Assembly (NCBI RefSeq): GCF_902832885.1
Contig: NZ_CADFDK010000007.1
Span: 186,001-250,000 of the forward strand
Direction: 5' to 3'
Length of the DNA: 64,000 bases
From: Burkholderia seminalis DSM 23518
GTDB taxonomy: Bacteria; Pseudomonadota; Gammaproteobacteria; Burkholderiales; Burkholderiaceae
Part shown: positions 22,877 to 23,147 of the stretch, piece after piece
How the letters are laid out: each line of letters starts with the position of its first letter
How positions within the stretch are numbered: the stretch's first letter is position 1
The notes under the pieces: generated by a model
Database searches by the model: none
Told to the model about the DNA's origin: nothing
The model's input: only the letters and a program-made list of their open reading frames with translations
Program-made: the position numbers and the translations under genes

Positions 22877-23147
22877 CTCCCGAAAAGTCTCACCTCAGCC
22901 TCCCGCAGGCGCTCACCGACACCTCCCGAACACGCTCACCGAAGGCTCCCGAAGACGCTCACCAAGGTCTCCCGAATATCCTCACCGGATGCTCCCGCAA
23001 GCCCTCACCGAGACGTCCTAGAAAGGCTCACCGGCGGCTCCCGCAAGGGCTCACCGGTCGCCCCCGGGAAGGCTCACCGAACGCTCCCGTATCGGCTCAC
23101 CACACATTCCCGGAAACGCTCACTGGCCGCTCCCGAAAAATCTCACC
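22877..23147 (+). repeat. Twelve-unit 23-bp tandem array, CTCCCG-N6-CTCACC-N5
   Basis: Unit starts fall at 22877 + 23n for n = 0 to 11 without a single indel. CTCACC is exact in 11 of 12 units (once CTCACT). CTCCCG is exact in 9 (others GTCCTA, CCCCCG, TTCCCG). The N6 and N5 spacers vary freely. Because CTCCCG and CTCACC are themselves alike (CTCMCS), the array is a direct repeat of one hexamer spaced alternately 12 and 11 bp, averaging 11.5 bp, so 24 hexamers face one side of the helix. It lies in a 635-bp intergenic region. It is not a CRISPR: the spacers are 5-6 bp and no cas genes are present. No family recognised. Confidence 0.95.

Follow-up and report, generated by a model that had tools for sequence, protein, structure and literature searches.

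A remote, phased array of chromosome 2 iterons in Burkholderia as a candidate RepA titration locus

The 64,000-nucleotide stretch of Burkholderia seminalis DSM 23518 analyzed here (the window; positions 186,001 to 250,000 of contig NZ_CADFDK010000007.1) contains a dense array of short direct repeats in the gap that separates two convergent genes at their 3′ ends, one for a conserved 180-residue protein and the other for a coenzyme A (CoA)-binding/GNAT protein, and the question that this locus raises is which protein the repeats serve and to what end. An earlier note, made from the sequence alone, had described twelve 23-bp units without an indel over 271 bp, and direct reading confirmed the unbroken 23-bp register, with Tandem Repeats Finder reporting periods of 23 and 46 at the array. 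Compared with the motif TCCCG-N6-CTCACC, nine of the 12 units are exact, two carry one mismatch and one (at 23016) carries two. Sites with at most one mismatch number 15 in the window, 11 of them inside the array, against 1.76 expected from shuffled sequence, and none of 100 shuffles reached 15. The hexamers CTCCCG and CTCACC had been taken for two independent elements, but because the same pair is found as isolated sites elsewhere, they are halves of one bipartite site. Nor do the units share one face of the helix, as had been proposed, since with a helical repeat of 10.5 bp a spacing of 23 bp rotates each unit by about 69 degrees and each half-site by about 34 degrees. The intervening bases had been described as all free; the 5-bp linker does vary most, but the inner bases are partly conserved, with A at the second in 93%, and at the third and fourth in 62–65%, of 605 units (50 genomes).

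The repeat, which the earlier note did not recognize, matches a published site. Du et al. (2016, PMC4948915) give ctCCCGAAAAacCTCACCTtt as the consensus of the chromosome 2 (c2) iterons of B. cenocepacia J2315 and mention a second cluster '140kb anticlockwise from the origin'. An iteron set had been one of three guesses made for the array, and it is the one that holds, as the same site forms the cluster at the chromosome 2 origin. In the draft genome to which the window belongs (55 contigs), exact matches to the motif number 41, compared to four for a reversed control, and a dense cluster of sites lies at about C7:349806-351113, on the same contig as the array. The origin cluster (L100:4807-6098) comprises 18 sites at no more than one mismatch, nine of them exact, all in one orientation and irregularly spaced (22–260 bp), and is directly upstream of repA (L100:3320-4687, minus strand). 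RepA matches PF01051 (Rep3_N, E 3.4e-12) and PF21205 (Rep3_C, E 7.5e-10), both above the curated cut-off, and thus has the two winged-helix domains, WH1 and WH2, of a Rep_3 initiator; its best match among solved structures, a weak one, is the R6K pi protein (E 0.0071). The protein is 455 residues long, with the Rep_3 domains ending near residue 253 and about 200 residues beyond them that have no Pfam match. A ParB_N gene lies beyond repA and a KfrA_N gene on the opposite side of the origin cluster. Together, the cluster and repA have the anatomy of a second-chromosome iteron origin, hereafter ori2. The distance from repA to the 180-residue gene in this genome is 140–141 kb. Since both the consensus and the distance of about 140 kb agree with those given for J2315 (PMC4948915), the array is, judged by sequence and position, almost certainly the orthologue of the second c2 iteron cluster of that strain. 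In the sections of the paper covered here, the J2315 cluster is the subject of one sentence in a supplementary table legend, and these sections do not deal with its anatomy, conservation, site classes or function (PMC4948915).

These results point to the array being, probably, a bank of 12 RepA iterons about 141 kb from ori2 that acts as a distal titration and handcuffing locus. The core identity with the origin iterons, the replicon specificity, the register, the selection and the distance were computed; RepA as the binder of the iterons, which the Rep_3 domains suggest, and the titration and handcuffing that would follow from it, we infer.

Exact sites are concentrated on the replicon that carries repA. 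In six genus genomes, each assembled in two or three contigs (G001, G006, G024, G034, G055 and G058; G057 was left out of this count), the repA replicon holds 177 of the 202 exact sites, and the 25 found elsewhere compare with 20 for a reversed-pattern control over whole genomes. None of the 33 exact sites in G001, and none of the 28 in G006, is off the repA replicon; some of the 25 in the other genomes may be real, for example two that are 31 bp apart on G034:C3. Origin clusters account for 59 of the 177 sites, a further 100 lie within 300 kb of the origin cluster, and 18 are farther away. A similar concentration on the repA contig was seen in other genera (12 of 13 exact sites in G108, 24 of 29 in G106 and 34 of 41 in G112). 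The 180-residue gene or the array shares a contig with repA in 48 of 64 genomes, the remaining 16 being drafts of at least 80 contigs in which the gene and repA are on different contigs. The array is thus found on the replicon of its presumed initiator, and not on the primary chromosome as crtS is. In the six genomes the array itself points toward ori2, as do 40 of the 42 non-origin sites within 50 kb of ori2 (pooled and not independent) and, by a hand count, 19 of 22 such sites in three other genera (G106, G108 and G112); base composition alone predicts a ratio of only about 1.2–1.4 to 1. At 50–300 kb from ori2, by subtraction, six sites in the six Burkholderia genomes point toward it and 18 away. 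Pairs of iterons exactly 22 bp apart recur off the origin cluster (L101:4494-4532, L102:4288-4326 and L107:1782-1820), which is another phased arrangement of these sites.

Pairwise divergence, averaged over 14 genomes whose 271-bp arrays are ungapped, was 0.018 in CTCACC and 0.052 in TCCCG, compared to 0.358 in the 5-bp linker, while the second inner base showed none, the other inner bases 0.188 and the leading C 0.179. Third codon positions of the adjacent 180-residue gene diverged by 0.101 (13 of the 14 genomes, G049 being left out). Between species, the spacers of a given unit are 72% identical, whereas those of different units in one genome are 34% identical, indicating that the units are old and individually inherited. 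Purifying selection therefore keeps the core and the 23-bp register of the array. This bears out the view, taken in the earlier note, that conserved spacing with diverged linkers reflects selection for protein binding and not recent tandem duplication.

Array and origin share one core consensus, present in 88 origin sites (five genomes, at most one mismatch) and in the 605 array units (at most three mismatches). Resemblance to the core was the criterion by which both sets were chosen, so that a comparison between them is informative only at the inner and flanking bases, and these differ. The base after CTCACC is T in 70% of origin sites and 20% of array units, and the first inner base is A in 67% and 31%, respectively. 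By these bases, the array is a separate class of site that shares the core, rather than a copy of the origin.

The earlier note had named absence from close relatives as grounds for giving up its reading, and a survey of the genus found the opposite, with at least eight chained units in 50 of 64 genomes (at least ten in 44, and eight or nine in six) and seven or fewer in 14, the full range being 1–23. The unit count is the longest chain of sites with at most three mismatches and steps of 20–26 bp (G062 was left out); a decayed or shifted unit breaks the chain, so that some arrays are undercounted (for example G005, G020, G021, G039 and G047), and genomes such as G006 and G034, in which the two exact sites are 34 bp apart, are counted as 1. 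In the arrays of at least eight units, 503 of 555 spacings are 23 bp, with 35 of 24 bp, 16 of 22 bp and one of 25 bp. The repA gene was found in all 65 genus genomes searched and the 180-residue gene in 61 of 61. When the array was searched as DNA together with its flanks, 61 of 65 genomes matched, the few-unit ones by short matches only, some of which lie elsewhere in the genome. Where the gene and repA are on one contig (45 genomes tabulated), they are a median of 149 kb apart (range 103–212 kb) in the 38 genomes outside the few-unit group and 116–273 kb apart in the seven few-unit genomes; distances of about 164, 185 and 238 kb were obtained by hand for G064, G061 and G063. A scan of genome contigs for an exact unit together with the exact near halves of both its neighbors returned 38 stretches, 32 of them in Burkholderia records and the other six in Nocardia (two), Rhizobiales, Streptomyces, Propionibacteriaceae and Caballeronia. 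When a shorter array pattern was run against 200 family genomes, 20 of 23 Burkholderia matched and only three of 177 others, each with a single match.

The initiator is more widespread than the array. RepA matches at E <=1e-30 were found in 29 of 60 family genomes, with 88–92% identity in 12 genomes from four genera other than Burkholderia (g10, g13, g20 and g25), 78–89% in three of g8 and 33–41% in the rest, and 15 loci from these five genera have 9–19 sites (at most one mismatch) near repA. The 180-residue gene is present in 15 non-Burkholderia genomes, mostly at 69–79% identity, and none of these 15 loci has a cluster of sites beside it, one having a single site with one mismatch. On a tree of the 180-residue gene (71 rows), outgroups have no units and nine early-branching Burkholderia have 1–3 chained units, and a single 54-row clade (support 96/74) contains all 50 arrays of at least eight units; the other four rows in that clade have one (G038), seven (G054), six (G047) and six (G005). 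The tree is of one short gene, midpoint-rooted, with row L091 missing and many inner forks weak. Because the early branches have 1–3 units and other genera have no cluster at this gene, the simplest reading is that the array probably grew once inside Burkholderia and was later lost in places. The arrays of L092 (G031) and L093 (G022) are nearly identical and internally damaged, yet they are far apart on the tree, and in both genomes the 180-residue gene and repA have the same orientation; recombination together with inversion about ori2 is a likely explanation for these two.

As a titration locus, the array would work as follows. Each unit would bind one RepA protomer, with one winged-helix domain on TCCCG and one on CTCACC, so that the loaded array would lower free RepA and could also be handcuffed to the origin through pairing between the RepA molecules on the two sets of iterons. 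As a RepA sink, its 12 units would rival the 18 sites of the origin. At a fork speed of ~33 kb/min, as in B. cenocepacia (PMC4948915), a fork from ori2 would double the array ~4 min after firing, in a C period of ~51 min, and this early doubling would cause a jump in competing sites and thereby suppress re-initiation in the same cycle. That the array is a second origin was set aside as unlikely, since window positions 20000–27000 contain no DnaA box (at most one mismatch) and the GC content near the array nowhere falls below 50% over 100 bp; for comparison, there are two one-mismatch boxes in the 18-kb origin stretch L100 and five in the whole window.

Several points weigh against a titration locus. 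The differences between array and origin sites mean that affinity for RepA may be lower at the array, and our literature search found no binding or replication experiment on it. The array has only 1–3 chained units in 11 of the 64 genus genomes and is missing at the 15 loci of other genera, including genera whose RepA is 88–92% identical; it is therefore no general requirement for the control of chromosome 2. In Vibrio cholerae, moreover, deletion of one distal initiator site gave no growth phenotype (PMC3937223). A bolder version of the titration reading, which we put forward tentatively as less likely than not, makes the array a dedicated once-per-cycle timer of chromosome 2, that is, a polar, phased RepA sink one short fork-travel from ori2, evolved once in Burkholderia from a few stray iterons and acting jointly with a halo of scattered iterons, those close to ori2 being directed toward it. 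The RepA-coated array might then also delay the fork of the left arm, a possible cause of the left–right asymmetry reported for c2.

A related possibility is that the RepA-bound array is mainly structural or acts at the fork, pausing the left-arm fork or tethering the left arm to ori2 through RepA–RepA bridges. The orientation of the array and of the sites within 50 kb of ori2, in excess of what composition predicts, would suit such a role, as would the anticlockwise location of the second c2 cluster and the slightly fewer origin-proximal reads that Du et al. report on the c2 left arm (PMC4948915). However, the sites at 50–300 kb mostly point away from ori2, so that polarity is not general, and the read asymmetry is slight, origin-proximal and open to other causes offered by the same authors (PMC4948915); we consider a mainly structural role unlikely. 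A positive element that activates or recycles RepA, as DARS or crtS might, and so licenses ori2 appears less likely still. The distinct class of the array sites is what one might expect of activating sites, but the enhancer of V. cholerae belongs to the primary chromosome and differs from a simple iteron (PMC3937223). The Burkholderia array, by contrast, belongs to chromosome 2 and has retained the core of the iteron, and the absence of exact sites off the repA replicon in G001 and G006 also argues against this role.

That a stray iteron expanded in tandem by neutral processes and persisted by chance is slightly less probable again. Such an expansion could account for the wide range in unit number and for the series on the 180-residue gene tree, which looks like growth, but the age of the units, whose cores have stayed nearly fixed while their spacers diverged, speaks against it, and a core divergence far below that of both the linker and the third codon positions runs directly counter to neutrality. 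Very improbable, finally, is that the array is the target of the adjacent H-NS-like protein, as the earlier note had suggested, or a partition centromere bound by ParB. Apart from adjacency, this is favored by the second H-NS-family gene in the window, which also has a site just downstream. H-NS nucleation sites are AT-rich stretches, and the array is 64.6% GC (68.1% for the window). The 180-residue protein has no Pfam or NCBIfam match, its gene lacks a site cluster in the other genera and has only 1–3 chained units beside it in the 11 genus genomes noted above, and the densest other cluster is at repA; with the latter and the missing cluster in other genera, an H-NS or ParB target was ruled out as the leading explanation. 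Du et al. also mark parS sites apart from iterons (PMC4948915). The 180-residue gene is probably not part of the function of the array.

Plasmids with Rep_3 initiators have comparable arrays. The inc loci of P1 (incA) and F (incC) consist of dense direct-repeat iterons outside the minimal origin, spaced by about two helical turns, and lower copy number by titration and handcuffing. They adjoin rep, whereas the Burkholderia array is ~141 kb from repA. On a chromosome, the E. coli datA locus titrates the initiator from a position near the origin of the same replicon (PMC3937223, PMC6090056). The proposed role of the array is similar in these respects, but datA has DnaA sites where the array has iterons. 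Stimulation of DnaA-ATP hydrolysis is a further activity of datA. A published chromosomal parallel comes from V. cholerae chromosome II, where distal RctB sites, ~40 kb from ori2, titrate this initiator and have an inhibitory effect on replication (Baek and Chattoraj 2014, PMC3937223). These too are extra initiator sites near the origin of a secondary chromosome that are doubled early and titrate, and they have been likened to datA (PMC3937223). In V. cholerae the initiator is RctB, and the array described here is one dense phased array. In the literature searched, we found no account of the function, genus-wide conservation, site class or growth of the array. What is in print is the existence of the cluster in one strain; as a kind of element it would be a dense, phased, inc-like remote array on a second chromosome with a putative titration role. 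A 2026 survey calls for the identification of second-chromosome replication timers beyond crtS (PMC13342612). The array bears on how plasmid-derived second chromosomes outside Vibrio keep to one round per cell cycle, and it offers a candidate that is defined, removable and conserved widely, and whose natural variation in unit number (1–3, about 12 and up to 23) can be set against initiation timing.

Table 1 Iterons and neighboring genes in the window
Feature	Position	Strand	Remarks
Remote iteron array	22877..23147	+	12 units x 23 bp, CTCCCG-N6-CTCACC-N5; starts 22877 + 23k; core as chromosome 2 origin iterons
Conserved 180-residue gene	22241..22783	+	just upstream of array; partly resembles the H-NS paralogue in the window
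CoA-binding / succinyl-CoA ligase-like / GNAT gene	23419..25860	-	convergent neighbor
Single iteron, one mismatch	26008..26024	-	22 bp from next iteron
Single iteron, exact	26030..26046	-	~301 bp from iteron at 26331
Single iteron, exact	26331..26347	-	just downstream of stop codon of H-NS gene (26349-26651)
Single iteron, exact	48731..48747	+	similar distance from ori2 (~115-128 kb) to sites in G001, G024 and G055

The features of the window are collected in Table 1. An inverted repeat at 22853-22883, just past the 180-residue gene, has the first array unit as its 3′ arm, and a similar hairpin is present in several relatives. In Rfam, the array gave only two sub-threshold matches (20.1 of 39 and 19.7 of 70 bits), and as gathering scores were not reached, a structured RNA was dropped from consideration. 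A coding repeat was likewise set aside, the long plus-strand frame across the array being taken as a by-product of high GC. The 180-residue protein is 43% identical over 63 residues to the H-NS paralogue. The three iterons between the minus-strand H-NS gene and the CoA-binding/GNAT gene are oriented away from ori2, opposite to the array, and pairs of exact sites ~301 bp apart, like that at 26030 and 26331, are also present in G001, G024 and G055.
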